Positions 5,481-45,370 of a stretch of DNA of 45,370 nucleotides are shown here, one piece after another. Under the pieces are notes generated by a model, which worked only from the letters and a program-made list of their open reading frames with translations, had not been told where the DNA came from and ran no database searches. The position numbers were made by a program, and so were the translations under genes. The DNA is taken from positions 1 through 45,370 of IMG/VR virus record IMGVR_UViG_3300025276_000060. The stretch is one strand, 5' to 3'. Source of the DNA: a virus. Every line of letters begins with the position of its first letter. The first letter of the stretch is position 1.

Positions 5481-6845
5481 ATGGATATTAAAGCATTACA
5501 GGCGCTTATTGAAACAGCGACCAAAAACTACGAGGCTCAAAAAGATGAGAACTCGAAACTCGAAACCAAGTTCAAAGCGCTTGACGAAAAGCACAACGAA
5601 TTACTTGGTAAATTTGACAAGTTACAAGAGTCTGGTGATAAAGACGTTTCGGCTGTTAAATCTAAGTCTGAAGAAATCGTTACTCAGCTTAAAGAGCTTG
5701 AAGATGAAATGTCAGATTTACGTACTAAACAAAAGTCACCAGCAATTGCTTTCGATAACAAAGAAGTTAAATCTGTTGTTCAAGGTATTGCTAAAAAGGC
5801 TGTCGGTGCGTTTATTAAAACCAAGGACAATCGTTTAGACTTCTTTGAATTTATTGCTCAAAACTCGACAGACCAGTGTAAAGCGTTAAACATTAGTTCA
5901 CCTGAAACAGGTGGTCTTGCTGTAGCTGAAGTGCTTGCTCGCGATGTATTGGATTATTACCGTGACGTATCACCTATCATTGGTGAAGTTGGTCGTAAAC
6001 CATCTATGACACGTTCATACCGTCAGTTAATTCGTATTTCATGGCCTAGTGTTGCAGAAGGTATTGAAAACGTTGCTGGTGTTGTACCTGATGAAACAAG
6101 CACTCAAGAATACGCTGAAATCAAATCTAAAGAGTTCAAAATGTATGCATCACCACGCATCACTAATGAAGCCCTTTCAGGTGTTGATATTGATGTTTAT
6201 GCAGACCTGGTTGCTACACTTGGTGAAGAAAGTGGTGTTTACCTTGCTAACCAAATCTTGTTTGGTGACGGTCAAGACAAAAACGCACGTGGTATTCTTT
6301 CTAGTAATCGTTTCGATATTACTGATGAAACAGGTGAATCGTTCAAACCAACTTTAGGTACTGGCGCACGTGACCATGATTTCTACCCTGCTTATGCAAC
6401 GGGTGTATCTGGTGCTATCGGCGCTGATGATAAAGCTAAAGTAGACTGGTTACTTACCTTTATGCGTAAGTTACCTAAACGCTACCGTAAGAACGCGAAA
6501 CTTTACATGAATGAAAATACACTGTTAGAGTTTGAACTTCTTCGTGACGCTGATGACCGCCCTATTTTCCGTACTAACTACATGGAAGGTGAAGTTCGTC
6601 TAAATGGCAAACCAGTGGTTATCGATGACACGTTACCTGATATTGCGGCAGACTCTGCCTTTATGATTTATGGTGACTTACCGATGGCTTATGCAATCAA
6701 TGACGGCGATATTGATCAAATGCTGTTGGACCCCTATACAAAAAAAGGCTCTTTGATTGTATACACTGAAAAAGAAATGTTTGAAATGGCACAGCGCAGC
6801 GACGCTATCTTAATCGGTGCTGCAACGGCTAACGCTTTAGCATAA
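5481..6845 (+). CDS. Major capsid protein with N-terminal scaffold (HK97 fold)
   Basis: The 454-aa subunit builds the icosahedral head. Residues 1 to about 95 are highly charged coiled coil and correspond to the delta/scaffold domain removed by the neighbouring protease. The HK97-fold core starts near SSPETGGLAVAEVLARDV, the usual start of the mature protein. It continues with long stretches typical of the family, such as the ITNEALSG and GEESGVYLANQI segments. A 90-nt non-coding gap with small hairpins separates it from the protease. A strong intrinsic terminator follows at 6870, consistent with high, separately controlled expression. Confidence 0.95.
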   Translation: MDIKALQALIETATKNYEAQKDENSKLETKFKALDEKHNELLGKFDKLQESGDKDVSAVKSKSEEIVTQLKELEDEMSDLRTKQKSPAIAFDNKEVKSVVQGIAKKAVGAFIKTKDNRLDFFEFIAQNSTDQCKALNISSPETGGLAVAEVLARDVLDYYRDVSPIIGEVGRKPSMTRSYRQLIRISWPSVAEGIENVAGVVPDETSTQEYAEIKSKEFKMYASPRITNEALSGVDIDVYADLVATLGEESGVYLANQILFGDGQDKNARGILSSNRFDITDETGESFKPTLGTGARDHDFYPAYATGVSGAIGADDKAKVDWLLTFMRKLPKRYRKNAKLYMNENTLLEFELLRDADDRPIFRTNYMEGEVRLNGKPVVIDDTLPDIAADSAFMIYGDLPMAYAINDGDIDQMLLDPYTKKGSLIVYTEKEMFEMAQRSDAILIGAATANALA

Positions 6846-33378: not shown

Positions 33379-33515
33379 CTAAGAAAATAATTTATAAGTG
33401 TAACTCGGAAGGGTTTCGTGATAACAGACAGTGTGAAAATTTCGAATATGGTAAACGATGTGGTACACACGGTAACACTAAATGTCCACATAAAATACGC
33501 GAGGAAGTGAAATGA
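33375..33515 (+). CDS. 46-aa Cys-rich small protein
   Basis: A 46-residue ORF carries four spaced Cys (KCNSEG, RQCENF, KRCGTHG, TKCPHK), fitting one zinc site. It overlaps the helicase stop (ATGA) and the endolysin start (ATGA), so it is clearly translated between them. It may be an accessory factor of the helicase. The function is unknown. Confidence 0.7.
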   Translation: MTKKIIYKCNSEGFRDNRQCENFEYGKRCGTHGNTKCPHKIREEVK

Positions 33516-33970
33516 AACCAATAACGTTTAACGAGTGTAAATCATTAATAAAATCTGTATACCAGCGTATCGGGGCCTACAATAGTGAGAATGCTATCGA
33601 TGTTACTTTAATGATTGTGGCCCATGAATCAGGGCAAGGTGTACATCGTCGTCAACTCGGTGCTGATGATCCTGCACTTGGTTTAGGTCAAATGGAACGC
33701 GCGACGTTTAACGATACTCTTAAACACAGTGATAATATTAATAAGTATTTATTGCTTGGTGGGTATTGTCCGAAGTCTGTTGAATTTGAGCAAATCGAAG
33801 ATGATGATGAACTGGCCTTAATATTTATACGTGCGCGATTGGCAATGGACGTTAATCCACTACCGATCGGTACGTTAGCACAGGCGAGATATTGTAAAGA
33901 ATATTGGAATGCGGGTGGTAAAGCTACTGCTCGTAAATATTTTAATGACTATTGTAACTGGATTAGTTAA
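33512..33970 (+). CDS. Endolysin, lysozyme/transglycosylase-like
   Basis: The 152-aa protein looks like a goose-type/transglycosylase-like muramidase: AHESGQG with putative catalytic Glu39, then the region DDPALGLGQM with GLGQM (57-61) lining the sugar groove, and the helical remainder expected of the fold. It would cut peptidoglycan at lysis. There is no signal peptide, so it needs the holin candidate at 34806. It follows the Cys-rich protein in an ATGA overlap, and its stop overlaps the response regulator's stop on the opposite strand. Confidence 0.8.
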   Translation: MKPITFNECKSLIKSVYQRIGAYNSENAIDVTLMIVAHESGQGVHRRQLGADDPALGLGQMERATFNDTLKHSDNINKYLLLGGYCPKSVEFEQIEDDDELALIFIRARLAMDVNPLPIGTLAQARYCKEYWNAGGKATARKYFNDYCNWIS

Positions 33971-34410
33971 ATACCGTCTTTGTACTTTTCACAGAACGCG
34001 GCCATTTCGTTACGTACAGGTTTAAATATGTCACTCAGTTTACTGATAACTTCATGTTTCATTACTTGTGTAACGAGGTGGTCAACACTAACCGGTTTAT
34101 GGAAATAATCAATCACACCCATGTGTAATGACCTCGTTGCATCACTTAATGAGTCAGAACCAGTGACGAATATAACGGGTATATCGCGTGTCAACGGGTG
34201 AGTCTTTAATACTGCACACACTTCAAAACCATCTGCTTCAGGCATATATAAATCAAGAATAACGAATGAGGGTTTATACTTTAAAGTATATTCAAGGGCC
34301 TTGGTTGAGTCTTGTAACGTGATGGTTTCAACACCCTGGTTATTAAAAGCCGCTTCAAATACTTTAAGGTCAAGCGGGTTATCATCAATAATTAAAACTG
34401 AACTATCCAC
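33967..34410 (-). CDS. Stand-alone CheY-like response regulator
   Basis: The 147-aa protein is a receiver domain with every key residue: acidic pair Asp9/Asp10 in VLIIDDN, phosphoacceptor Asp53 in FVILDLYMP, Thr83 in FVTGSDS and Lys105 in DYFHKP. There is no output domain, only about 35 extra residues of helix. It probably receives phosphate from a host histidine kinase or titrates one. The GTG start at 34410 has AAGGGTG nearby and no alternative start. It converges with the endolysin gene, overlapping it by 4 nt, and lies 4 nt downstream of the membrane/coiled-coil gene. Receiver-only proteins are unusual on phages. Confidence 0.9.
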   Translation of the reverse strand: MDSSVLIIDDNPLDLKVFEAAFNNQGVETITLQDSTKALEYTLKYKPSFVILDLYMPEADGFEVCAVLKTHPLTRDIPVIFVTGSDSLSDATRSLHMGVIDYFHKPVSVDHLVTQVMKHEVISKLSDIFKPVRNEMAAFCEKYKDGI

Positions 34411-34414
34411 AATT

Positions 34415-34663
34415 TCACCCTTTACTCTTTGTTTCGCCAGTCGCGATAGAATATAAACGTCGTTCTATGTCCAACTGTGCCGATGCTATAGTTGCCGTTA
34501 ATAACTTGATATCTGAGTTTAACGGGTCGATTTTCTCTTTCAACGATTTAACTTCTATTTCTAATTTATTGATACGTTCTGCTCTCTTAGTGTACGAGTT
34601 GTAGAACCAGCCGATGGGGATTACTACTACAGCCCATATCAAATTTAAGAGATTAAAATCCAT
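34415..34663 (-). CDS. Membrane-anchored coiled-coil protein (spanin- or DUF2730-like)
   Basis: The 82-aa protein has one N-terminal membrane segment (LLNLIWAVVVIPIGWFY, about residues 5-21) and then charged heptads predicting a coiled coil (ERINKLEIEVKSLKEKI...). This matches inner-membrane spanin-type or DUF2730-type phage proteins found near lysis genes. ATG at 34663 has AAGG 7 nt upstream. Its product could present the response regulator to membrane kinases or act in lysis. It leads the two-gene minus-strand unit. Confidence 0.72.
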   Translation of the reverse strand: MDFNLLNLIWAVVVIPIGWFYNSYTKRAERINKLEIEVKSLKEKIDPLNSDIKLLTATIASAQLDIERRLYSIATGETKSKG

Positions 34664-34695
34664 CACAATGCCTTAGTCGTTTATTTTAATTGAAT

Positions 34696-34724
34696 ATATT
34701 AGACCTTTTCACACTGTAATTAAA
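34696..34724 (-). promoter_or_regulatory. Leftward promoter of the response regulator pair
   Basis: TTTAAT (34719-34724) and TAATAT (34696-34701) on the minus strand are 17 nt apart and precede the coiled-coil gene by about 30 nt. It sits back to back with the holin promoter. Confidence 0.5.
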
Positions 34725-34729
34725 CACGA

Positions 34730-34758
34730 TTAAAGATTTTATCTTTACATTGTATGAT
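34730..34758 (+). promoter_or_regulatory. Rightward promoter of the holin candidate
   Basis: TTAAAG (34730-34735) and TATGAT (34753-34758) are 17 nt apart. The ATG of the holin candidate lies about 40 nt after the predicted start, with a GAGGA ribosome site. Confidence 0.5.
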
Positions 34759-34805
34759 AATCGTCCGAGAATTAACACAGTATTAATTGAGGATGAGGAC
34801 TGATA

Positions 34806-35204
34806 ATGAGTATTTTAAGTACCATAGCGGGTATATTTACTGGTGGTGCTACTAAGTCTATCGAGACTATTGCATCTGAATGGATTGAAACAGATTTAGA
34901 GAAAGCTGAAGCAAAGACTTTAATGATTAAAACGTTGGACCCTAACGGTCAAATGCGTCGTGACATTTCAAAGAGGGTGACTTTTCTATATACAGTTTAT
35001 ATATTCATAGCACTTTTACTGTTAGGATTTGAAAGTTTTGGACTTGGTGACGCTGCGACTATATCTATTGCAACCAGTAAGGTTGCCGAGTTGTTCACAC
35101 CCATCACCACATTGTTTGGTACTATTGTCAGTGTAAGTTTCGGTGTGAATTATTCAAATGTACGTGCTGAAAGTAAAATCAGTGACAATAAAAAACCCTC
35201 ATAA
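34806..35204 (+). CDS. Holin candidate (Holin_3TM-like)
   Basis: The 132-aa protein has an amphipathic start (SILSTIAGIFTGGATKSIE), an acidic segment with EKAEAK, then RRDISKRV and two strong membrane spans (FLYTVYIFIALLLLG, about residues 60-75; a second around ITTLFGTIVSVSFGVNY). The layout with the EKAE-type helix resembles Holin_3TM/GTA-type holins. It probably permits endolysin release. GAGGA precedes the ATG. Its end lies in a bidirectional terminator. Confidence 0.72.
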   Translation: MSILSTIAGIFTGGATKSIETIASEWIETDLEKAEAKTLMIKTLDPNGQMRRDISKRVTFLYTVYIFIALLLLGFESFGLGDAATISIATSKVAELFTPITTLFGTIVSVSFGVNYSNVRAESKISDNKKPS

Positions 35205-35220
35205 TCGAGGGTTTCGTTTT
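35193..35220. terminator. Bidirectional intrinsic terminator
   Basis: AAACCCTC (35193-35200) pairs with GAGGGTTT (35207-35214) around a 6-nt loop. On the plus strand CGTTTT follows. On the minus strand a run of T follows the stem, giving a stronger signal. It closes both the holin gene and the leftward nucleotide-enzyme operon. Confidence 0.85.
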
Positions 35221-35222
35221 AG

Positions 35223-35714
35223 TTATTTAACTCCGTGTTCTATTTCGTTGAGAAACATGAGACAACACTGAGCATGTGACAGGTGTGGTAAACCCGACTC
35301 AGTATCTATTGTCTCACCACTGAAGTAAGCTAATAAATGCCTCATTGCAGCGTCAGAATATCTCTGCTTAGCTTCATCAACCATTTTCCAATTATGGGCA
35401 CCATATTTCTTAGCGCCAAACTCAAGGACATCAATAGTGCTTTCAAGTGCTTTCTGAGGAACCAGACTAAAACGCGGTTTATTACCATCGAATTTCTTAC
35501 CTGAATCAATGGTTATTTTAGCAATCACTAAGTCGTCTTTATCAGTGGTTATAACACCTTGATGAGTAACTGGTACCGAACCGTCGAAATTATCTTCGAT
35601 TGCATAACCTTTTTCGATGTCAAACTCTACACAACGTTTAATTTCAACACCATCTACATAAACGGTTATAGGTATCAAACCTAATTCCACGGCTTTATTC
35701 TCGTCTATTTTCAT
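35223..35714 (-). CDS. dATP/dGTP diphosphohydrolase-like protein
   Basis: The 163-aa protein has an N-terminal small domain (VYVDGVEIKRCVEFD, about residues 18-32). The second domain shows KFDGNKPR (74-81), GAKKYGAHNW (100-109), AAMRHLLAY (122-130) and ETIDTESGLPHLSHA (134-148), a pattern of dATP/dGTP diphosphohydrolase-type phage enzymes of the all-alpha NTP-pyrophosphatase group. It probably hydrolyses purine dNTPs. The next gene encodes a MazG-like enzyme. I see no PurZ or DatZ, so 2-aminoadenine DNA is not supported. Confidence 0.75.
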   Translation of the reverse strand: MKIDENKAVELGLIPITVYVDGVEIKRCVEFDIEKGYAIEDNFDGSVPVTHQGVITTDKDDLVIAKITIDSGKKFDGNKPRFSLVPQKALESTIDVLEFGAKKYGAHNWKMVDEAKQRYSDAAMRHLLAYFSGETIDTESGLPHLSHAQCCLMFLNEIEHGVK

Positions 35715-35716
35715 AA

Positions 35717-36277
35717 TTAAAATCCTTTACCACCAGTCTGTGAACGATTCTCACGTTTATGGTCAGCGCGAGTACGATTGTATTCAATCTTTTCAACGAT
35801 AGCACCGTCAATATCGTAACCCTGAACAAACGCTATGTAGTAACACGCTTCAATTAGAACAGAGTAACCGAACGAACACATACTAGCGCTTTCAGTGCCA
35901 TCGTAATGAAACGAGTCGGCCAACTGGATGATTATTTTATTCAGTGATAAATGCATTGCACCGATGGTTTTCTCACCGTAATACATTAAACGTGGTCGCA
36001 TCGTTGCTGAGTATATCCAACCATAATGTCCTGCCATGTCAACGGCTCTAATAACAACGTCAGCGAGTTCAACCTCACCCATCGGGCGATTAGGCAAATG
36101 GTCATCCATTAACTGCTTACGCTCACCTTCAGTGGCCTCAGCGACTTCAGTGCTAAACAGTTGCAACGTTTCAAACGGACAGCGGTCTTTATTATCCCAC
36201 CAACCAACATCGACAGCCCAGGTGTGTACAGTTTCAGATAATTTATTAATATCAGTTTCAATTAGCATTGGTTTCAT
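35717..36277 (-). CDS. MazG-like nucleotide pyrophosphohydrolase
   Basis: The 186-aa protein has the MazG helix pair: LFSTEVAEATEGE (Glu44 and Glu47 area), then MGEVELADVVIRAVD with Glu/Asp metal ligands near 68-73. The C-terminal NRTRADHKRENRSQTGGKGF is a typical MazG-like end. It probably turns NTPs or dNTPs into monophosphates and may tune nucleotide signals. It lies 2 nt from the diphosphohydrolase gene, and its ATG overlaps the previous stop. Confidence 0.78.
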   Translation of the reverse strand: MKPMLIETDINKLSETVHTWAVDVGWWDNKDRCPFETLQLFSTEVAEATEGERKQLMDDHLPNRPMGEVELADVVIRAVDMAGHYGWIYSATMRPRLMYYGEKTIGAMHLSLNKIIIQLADSFHYDGTESASMCSFGYSVLIEACYYIAFVQGYDIDGAIVEKIEYNRTRADHKRENRSQTGGKGF

Positions 36278-45068: not shown

Positions 45069-45370
45069 GTTTTACCCATATTTAAAATTGGCCTTTAGCA
45101 ACACTGGTTCGAATCACCCGCCAAGTATCCACAGTATCCACAGTATCACCCTCAATTCTAATACAATCAATAACTTAACTATTCTAATGACACCAACGTC
45201 AACGCTATGACGAACACTATCGTTCATTCTCATAACTCCATGAATATGAGCGTTAAATCGTTTTACCCATATTTAAAATTGGCCTTTAGCAACACTGGTT
45301 CGAATCACCCGCCAAGTATCCACAGTATCCACAGTATCACCCTCAATTCTAATACAATCAATAACTTAAC
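45069..45370. repeat. 111-bp direct repeat, period 191, reaching the window end
   Basis: 45069-45179 and 45260-45370 are identical over 111 bp, and the second copy ends exactly at the window end. The 80-nt spacer (45180-45259) is unique. Inside, AGTATCCAC repeats two to three times. There is no ORF. The pattern suggests a tandem array cut at the end by assembly, or the edge of a terminal/packaging feature. The repeat is not present at the window start. Confidence 0.9.

Follow-up and report, generated by a model that had tools for sequence, protein, structure and literature searches.

The pairing of a stand-alone response-regulator receiver with a small membrane protein that has a predicted coiled coil is, judged by sequence comparison, a recurrent module of many unrelated Alteromonas-type phages. 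We examined it in an IMG/VR virus record of 45,370 b (G000; the window, meaning the whole stretch of DNA analysed). The membrane protein gene, its coiled coil predicted to be cytoplasmic, lies directly upstream of the stand-alone receiver at 20 of 21 distinct phage loci, although the 21 loci behind this count share ancestry and are not phylogenetically independent. Of the 20 paired loci, 18 have a gene for an endolysin, holin or spanin, or a gene resembling one of these, in the vicinity. Holins and antiholins set the timing of phage lysis, and the coupling of this timing to host physiology is still poorly understood. An intact receiver beside a membrane coiled-coil protein in unrelated lysis cassettes offers a testable link from host two-component signalling to lysis, and we regard the scales as evenly balanced on whether the pair would be a host-phosphorylated switch acting through the membrane partner on lysis timing.

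The receiver, its membrane partner and the flanking lysis genes

The receiver gene (33967-34410, minus strand) starts with GTG and encodes 147 aa. Pfam Response_reg (PF00072) matches residues 5-116 (2.1e-23, 83.1 bits, the cut-off being 30.2 bits), and this match, an AlphaFold2 model and Foldseek agree on a (beta-alpha)5 receiver fold. An initial annotation of this DNA had described a receiver-only protein with all residues for phosphorylation intact, and both points were borne out: the acidic pair D9 and D10, the phospho-Asp D53, T83 and K105 are present, together with the switch aromatic Y102, and no output domain was found, residues 117-147 having no separate domain match. Nor was a DNA-binding domain found; family matches are confined to the receiver part. 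In the model, alpha-5 carries on into residues 117-147 and forms one helix from 109 to 144 (mean pLDDT 88 for the model, computed from a 16-row alignment of the window and fetched loci, with 63-70 at the less confident helix end).

Foldseek matched the HK853-partner RR468, VicR, DivK and Spo0F over the receiver part of the model, and WspR and PleD over about 145 columns; the nearest named viral structure was the protein of phage V22. The closest families are PleD, PhoB and DivK receivers, and the chemotaxis CheY family is absent among the best 25 family matches, so that chemotaxis, once proposed as a target, is without sequence support. The receivers of PleD and WspR, the best PDB and NCBIfam sequence matches, share an alpha-5 that runs on into a helix, whereas the window protein is stand-alone, with neither GGDEF nor a second receiver domain. 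DivK, Spo0F and CheY are likewise receivers only, with intact catalytic residues, but the window protein differs from them in its conserved C-terminal helix of about 30 aa, its phage location, its near-constant membrane coiled-coil neighbour and the lack of a clear cognate kinase in the phage.

Directly upstream, after a gap of 4 nt, lies the gene for a predicted inner-membrane protein of 83 aa (34415-34666, minus strand; its start is probably the ATG at 34663), and an RBS-like AAAGGG in its 3' end precedes the receiver's GTG. The protein has an N-terminal TM segment (about residues 4-22) followed by a predicted coiled coil, and is modelled as a single, almost continuous helix from 4 to 82 (moderate confidence, 70). 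The positive-inside rule gives N-out/C-in, which would place the coiled coil in the cytoplasm alongside the receiver. The two-gene unit reported earlier therefore holds, and it is not a common arrangement in the window, where a small TM gene immediately precedes only 4 of 55 genes. An Rz spanin was rejected as an identity for the partner, because its charge-derived topology stands against the N-in TM and periplasmic coiled coil of Rz, and because Rz/Rz1-like genes are separate in the contigs L012, L111 and L113-L115. A match to PHROG 739 is weak (6.5e-4). The partner was also rejected as a phosphodonor, since the conserved His of the R8W, R9Y and L012 partners is missing at that place in the window and in L006.

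On the other side of the receiver, an endolysin-like ORF (33512-33970, plus strand; PHROG 3108) with a conserved 'AHES' motif is 36-39% identical to putative endolysins of phages A5, PY6 and RIO-1, and converges with the receiver in a tail-to-tail overlap of 4 bp. Its enzyme class is a putative assignment; against PDB, the family profile gave a non-significant match to lysozyme g (E 0.18). A holin candidate (34806-35204, plus strand; PHROG 31219), with an amphipathic N-terminus and two TM segments, is 56% identical to gp24, the endolysin neighbour in Pseudoalteromonas phage H6/1. Both names come from relatives that are annotated as endolysin or adjoin one, rather than from a Pfam match. The holin candidate diverges from the pair across 139 bp (34667-34805) in which sigma-70-like promoter matches on both strands are no stronger than weak, and a terminator-like stem-loop (35192-35215, both strands) lies 3' of it. 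The convergent and divergent orientations given in the initial annotation are thus confirmed. Unlike its relatives in Alteromonas phages, the window pair is on the strand opposite to the endolysin and holin, so their expression need not be coupled. The H6/1 cassette contains a holin homologous to that of the window and a CC-TM protein, and the receiver is absent there; going by this phage, the receiver seems to have been added to a lysis accessory that was already in place.

Recurrence of the pair across phages

Module carriers include Alteromonas podo-, sipho- and myoviruses, and the two genes mostly overlap by 4 nt or are separated by a few bases. Like the window, R8W, H4/4, V22 and A5 (and also R9Y1-3, PB15 and XX1924) have a stand-alone receiver of about 125-153 aa with an intact phosphosite, an upstream small TM/coiled-coil gene and lysis genes nearby. 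Full-length relatives of the receiver, including its tail, occur in Alteromonas phages R8W and H4/4 (Foturvirus, podoviruses) and R9Y1-3 (siphoviruses), in the IMG/VR contigs L006 (50-52%), L099/L100 (55%) and L007-L012, and in the MAG contigs L019/L020. The receivers of R8W, H4/4 and R9Y fall in the same clade as the window (clade I, 100/100), the identity to R8W and R9Y being about 36%. V22 (a myovirus), A5 (a schitovirus), PB15 and XX1924 differ from the window in having receivers of a second clade (93/84), together with L014, L111-L114 and L116, and with L115 attached; the receiver of L015 is a third, separate case outside both. Clades I and II are joined weakly (75/94) in one tree and stand apart in the other, and there may have been separate acquisitions of two or more receiver clades. 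Single-sequence viral scans with the window receiver or endolysin gave no matches; the relatives came from alignments.

The phosphosite residues are conserved in the 21 phage relatives, position 9 being Glu in L115 and position 83 T or S. Pairwise dN/dS values of 0.09-0.16 show that the receiver is under purifying selection and, taken with the conservation of the phosphosite over two clades, selection appears to act on its phosphorylation chemistry. Each clade conserves tail residues of its own: H119, mostly P131 and K/R142-Y143 in clade I, and an IG[KSR] motif, often [NS]IG[KSR], in much of clade II. This pattern suggests a specific partner surface, for which the simplest candidate would be the cytoplasmic coiled coil that is nearly always adjacent.

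In all 15 pairs tested the coiled coil is predicted to be cytoplasmic, with the TM segment N-terminal in 11 phages and C-terminal in 4. Coiled-coil scores are easily reached by chance, and conservation of the TM/CC proteins between lineages is poor. Between clades I and II, the N-TM partners align with an hhalign probability of 79%, albeit over low-complexity helices, and C-TM partners gave no match to N-TM partners. The PB15 partner matches PHROG 937 'hemolysin' (1.8e-16), to which XhlA of PBSX would presumably fall as well. XhlA-type proteins (PBSX XhlA/XhlB; PHROG 937) resemble the PB15-type partner in their cytoplasmic coiled coil, C-terminal TM segment and lysis-cassette location, whereas the window partner has its TM segment at the N-terminus and no PHROG 937 match. 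XhlA-type proteins are not known to pair with a receiver.

The pairing is rare around cellular receivers: a small TM gene lies directly upstream at no more than 3 of 60 cellular receiver loci, and none of 12 cellular stand-alone receivers has such a membrane coiled-coil neighbour. A Fisher value for the pairing (7.6e-16) was computed with approximate control counts (2 of 61) and takes no account of relatedness, and we do not rely upon it. In an out-of-sample set (L111, L113-L117) the partner is present in five of six. The exception to the pairing is L117, a 94-kb contig whose stand-alone receiver (5998-6384) lies outside a recognisable lysis cassette. Among the best 80 loci of a genome search, the top two, L019 and L020, which are phage-like contigs binned in MAGs, carry the pair, and it is absent in the 60 other loci with neighbours checked. 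A search of 369 gammaproteobacterial genomes at 1e-36, run without a positive control, found no prophage or host copies; a plasmid search returned one cyanobacterial receiver, and a defence library gave nothing convincing for the pair. Many tblastn 'phage' receiver matches were left uncounted, as they came from unannotated records that are apparently host-contaminated or mislabelled (Listeria, Staphylococcus, Enterococcus, Acinetobacter MD-2021a, and Pseudomonas Y11 and PACL).

The placement in the lysis region, proposed from the window, gains support from the recurrence of the arrangement in divergent phages with different lysis enzymes. In R9Y/L008 a GH108 lysozyme overlaps the receiver, while an M15 peptidase is found in PB15 and, convergent with the receiver, in L099. 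XX1924 and L014 have DUF5675 and then GTA_holin_3TM (1.4e-14 and 1.1e-19); L012 has DUF5675, a small TM gene, Rz and Rz1; and L115 has a phage lysozyme (2.8e-11) with Rz/Rz1-like and TM genes. In A5 and V22 an Rz-like spanin (PHROG 4297; 2.9e-8 and 7e-6) is followed by a 2-TM holin-like gene, after which come an endolysin in A5 and DUF5675 in V22-like phages; L111-L114 have, in addition, an Rz1-like lipoprotein ORF in an overlapping frame (spanin region of L111, 6419-7034). An annotated class II holin lies two genes upstream in R8W and H4/4, a peptidoglycan-binding protein a few genes upstream in L015, and a holin-like TM gene with no Pfam match after the receiver in L116. Profile searches picked out no lysis gene in L006 (at its contig end) or L020 (a TM protein with no profile match). 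Since the pair coexists with holin-like genes, endolysins and spanins, the TM/CC protein would be a further component of the lysis cassette.

Several neighbours in these cassettes merit mention in their own right. A5 gp12 (L101 3031-3507) and V22 ORF31 (L102 4168-4578), the Rz-like spanins, have been described as 'hypothetical' and assigned to a host recognition module. A 244-aa ORF, possibly a homing endonuclease, sits between Rz1 and the holin-like gene in L113 (7123-7857) and L114 (7120-7854), and there is none in V22 or L111. In V22-like phages, a permuted papain-like amidase (annotated in V22) is encoded just upstream of the TM/CC gene (L102 2960-3370, L111 5214-5624), and a similar ORF of L115 (8106-8552) is at the far end of its lysis cassette.

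As a counterpoint to lysis control, the pair often has tail fibre genes on one side and lysis genes on the other, a setting in which accessory genes also accumulate. Perhaps, then, a host-derived accessory pair has simply settled in this hot spot and has no role in lysis, and the existence of at least two receiver clades, perhaps separate acquisitions, would fit such a history. We consider this the least probable of the explanations weighed here, because the same type of partner recurs in two well-supported clades and in L015, and because purifying selection, the conserved phosphosite and the out-of-sample confirmation all speak against a chance neighbour.

Phosphodonors and a possible control of lysis time

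The idea that the receiver draws on a phosphodonor from outside the phage is supported by its conserved phosphosite and by the lack of a histidine-kinase ATPase match in 10 of the 11 phages tested. The match in A5 was rejected as a phage kinase, being 18.2 bits, below the cut-off, in an 854-aa frame. Each of 13 phages examined has one receiver. With no kinase above threshold in the 11 phages, the donor would have to be a host kinase or acetyl phosphate.

The reading that we favour is that the receiver and its membrane coiled-coil partner constitute a lysis-control module. Both proteins would be made together late in infection, and D53 would be phosphorylated by host histidine kinases or acetyl phosphate. 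The phosphorylation state would alter the alpha4-beta5-alpha5 face and the extended alpha-5 helix, and with them binding to the partner's cytoplasmic coiled coil, whereupon the partner would delay or trigger the holin, so that the time of lysis would track host physiology. Of this scheme, we infer the interaction of receiver and partner, the phosphorylation and the influence on the holin, including its sign. In its most specific form, in which the recurrent module gates the holin through the host-phosphorylated receiver and host two-component signalling sets the lysis time, the proposal is plausible and leans slightly towards doubtful.

Lacking an output domain and a clear phage kinase, a receiver whose chemistry is intact might also act as a phosphate sink or decoy, as was suggested at the outset: held at the membrane, where its anchor would place it near membrane kinases, it would drain phosphoryl groups from host kinases and blunt a two-component response (to stress, phosphate or motility), and the proximity of lysis genes would be incidental. 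The intact receiver without an output domain remains in favour of this suggestion, but a conserved, lineage-specific C-terminal helix and a constant coiled-coil partner would be superfluous for a sink, and lysis genes adjoin the pair repeatedly, in phages with unrelated enzymes. We therefore regard a sink as less likely than a lysis switch and, on the whole, rather unlikely.

Single members of the module have been published as auxiliary metabolic genes, unconnected with lysis or with the partner. R8W gp48 was described as PhoB, an adaptation to low phosphate (PMC8228385), and V22 ORF30 and A5 gp11 were taken for class II AMGs of CheY-like type and counted towards a shared host recognition module (PMC7289586, PMC10579305). 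On such accounts, a PhoB-like or CheY-like protein would tune the host's phosphate response or motility, which we find improbable. R8W gp48 has 153 aa and receiver matches only, leaving no space for a DNA-binding domain, the CheY family is missing among the window receiver's best matches as noted above, and both ideas leave the partner and the lysis context unexplained. A PhoB transcription factor was accordingly rejected for gp48, as the C-terminal winged-helix DNA-binding domain is missing. In public records, R8W gp48 (L001 4998-5459) is annotated 'PhoB / DNA-binding response regulator', yet has no DNA-binding domain, and V22 ORF30 (L102 3750-4199) 'hybrid sensor histidine kinase', yet is only a receiver; from their domain content, both annotations look wrong. 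The published readings of a PhoB AMG, a CheY AMG and a part of a 'host recognition module' are thereby corrected for cultured Alteromonas phages.

Or, perhaps the pair acts at the inner membrane against competitors, by superinfection exclusion or lysis inhibition, with the receiver reporting an envelope or stress signal from a second phage and delaying lysis, an outcome analogous to T4 lysis inhibition. A membrane-anchored cytoplasmic coiled coil adjoining tail fibre and lysis genes would suit this role, and N4 lysis inhibition has likewise been assigned to a cytoplasmic part of its pinholin (PMC12642591). This scenario, which we rate marginally below the auxiliary-gene accounts, is a special case of the switch of lysis timing. 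If the switch itself is real, host signalling would have a say in when these phages burst the cell, a mode of lysis control without a report in the literature searched: among open-licence papers, no report was found linking phage receivers to holins or lysis timing, and an earlier report elsewhere is possible.

The source phage

Recognisable genes in the window include those for a large terminase, major head protein, tape measure, tail proteins, DNA polymerase and primase, and they identify a tailed phage whose tail has a tape measure. At the nucleotide level, matches are confined to short stretches of Vibrio lentus phages. The nearest relatives of its lysis genes are in Pseudoalteromonas and Alteromonas phages, which makes a host among the Alteromonadales likely.

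A direct repeat of about 110 bp (45071-45179 and 45262-45370; copies 191 bp apart), the second copy of which stops exactly at the record end (45370), holds GGTTCGAATCACCCGCC, which resembles a tRNA 3' part; the repeat may be an attachment-like site or an end artefact of assembly. Beyond the holin candidate, a dATP/dGTP diphosphohydrolase-type protein (35223-35714; PF18909, 2.4e-30) is encoded beside a pyrophosphatase-like gene (35717-36277; PHROG 5658), and the two possibly alter nucleotide pools.
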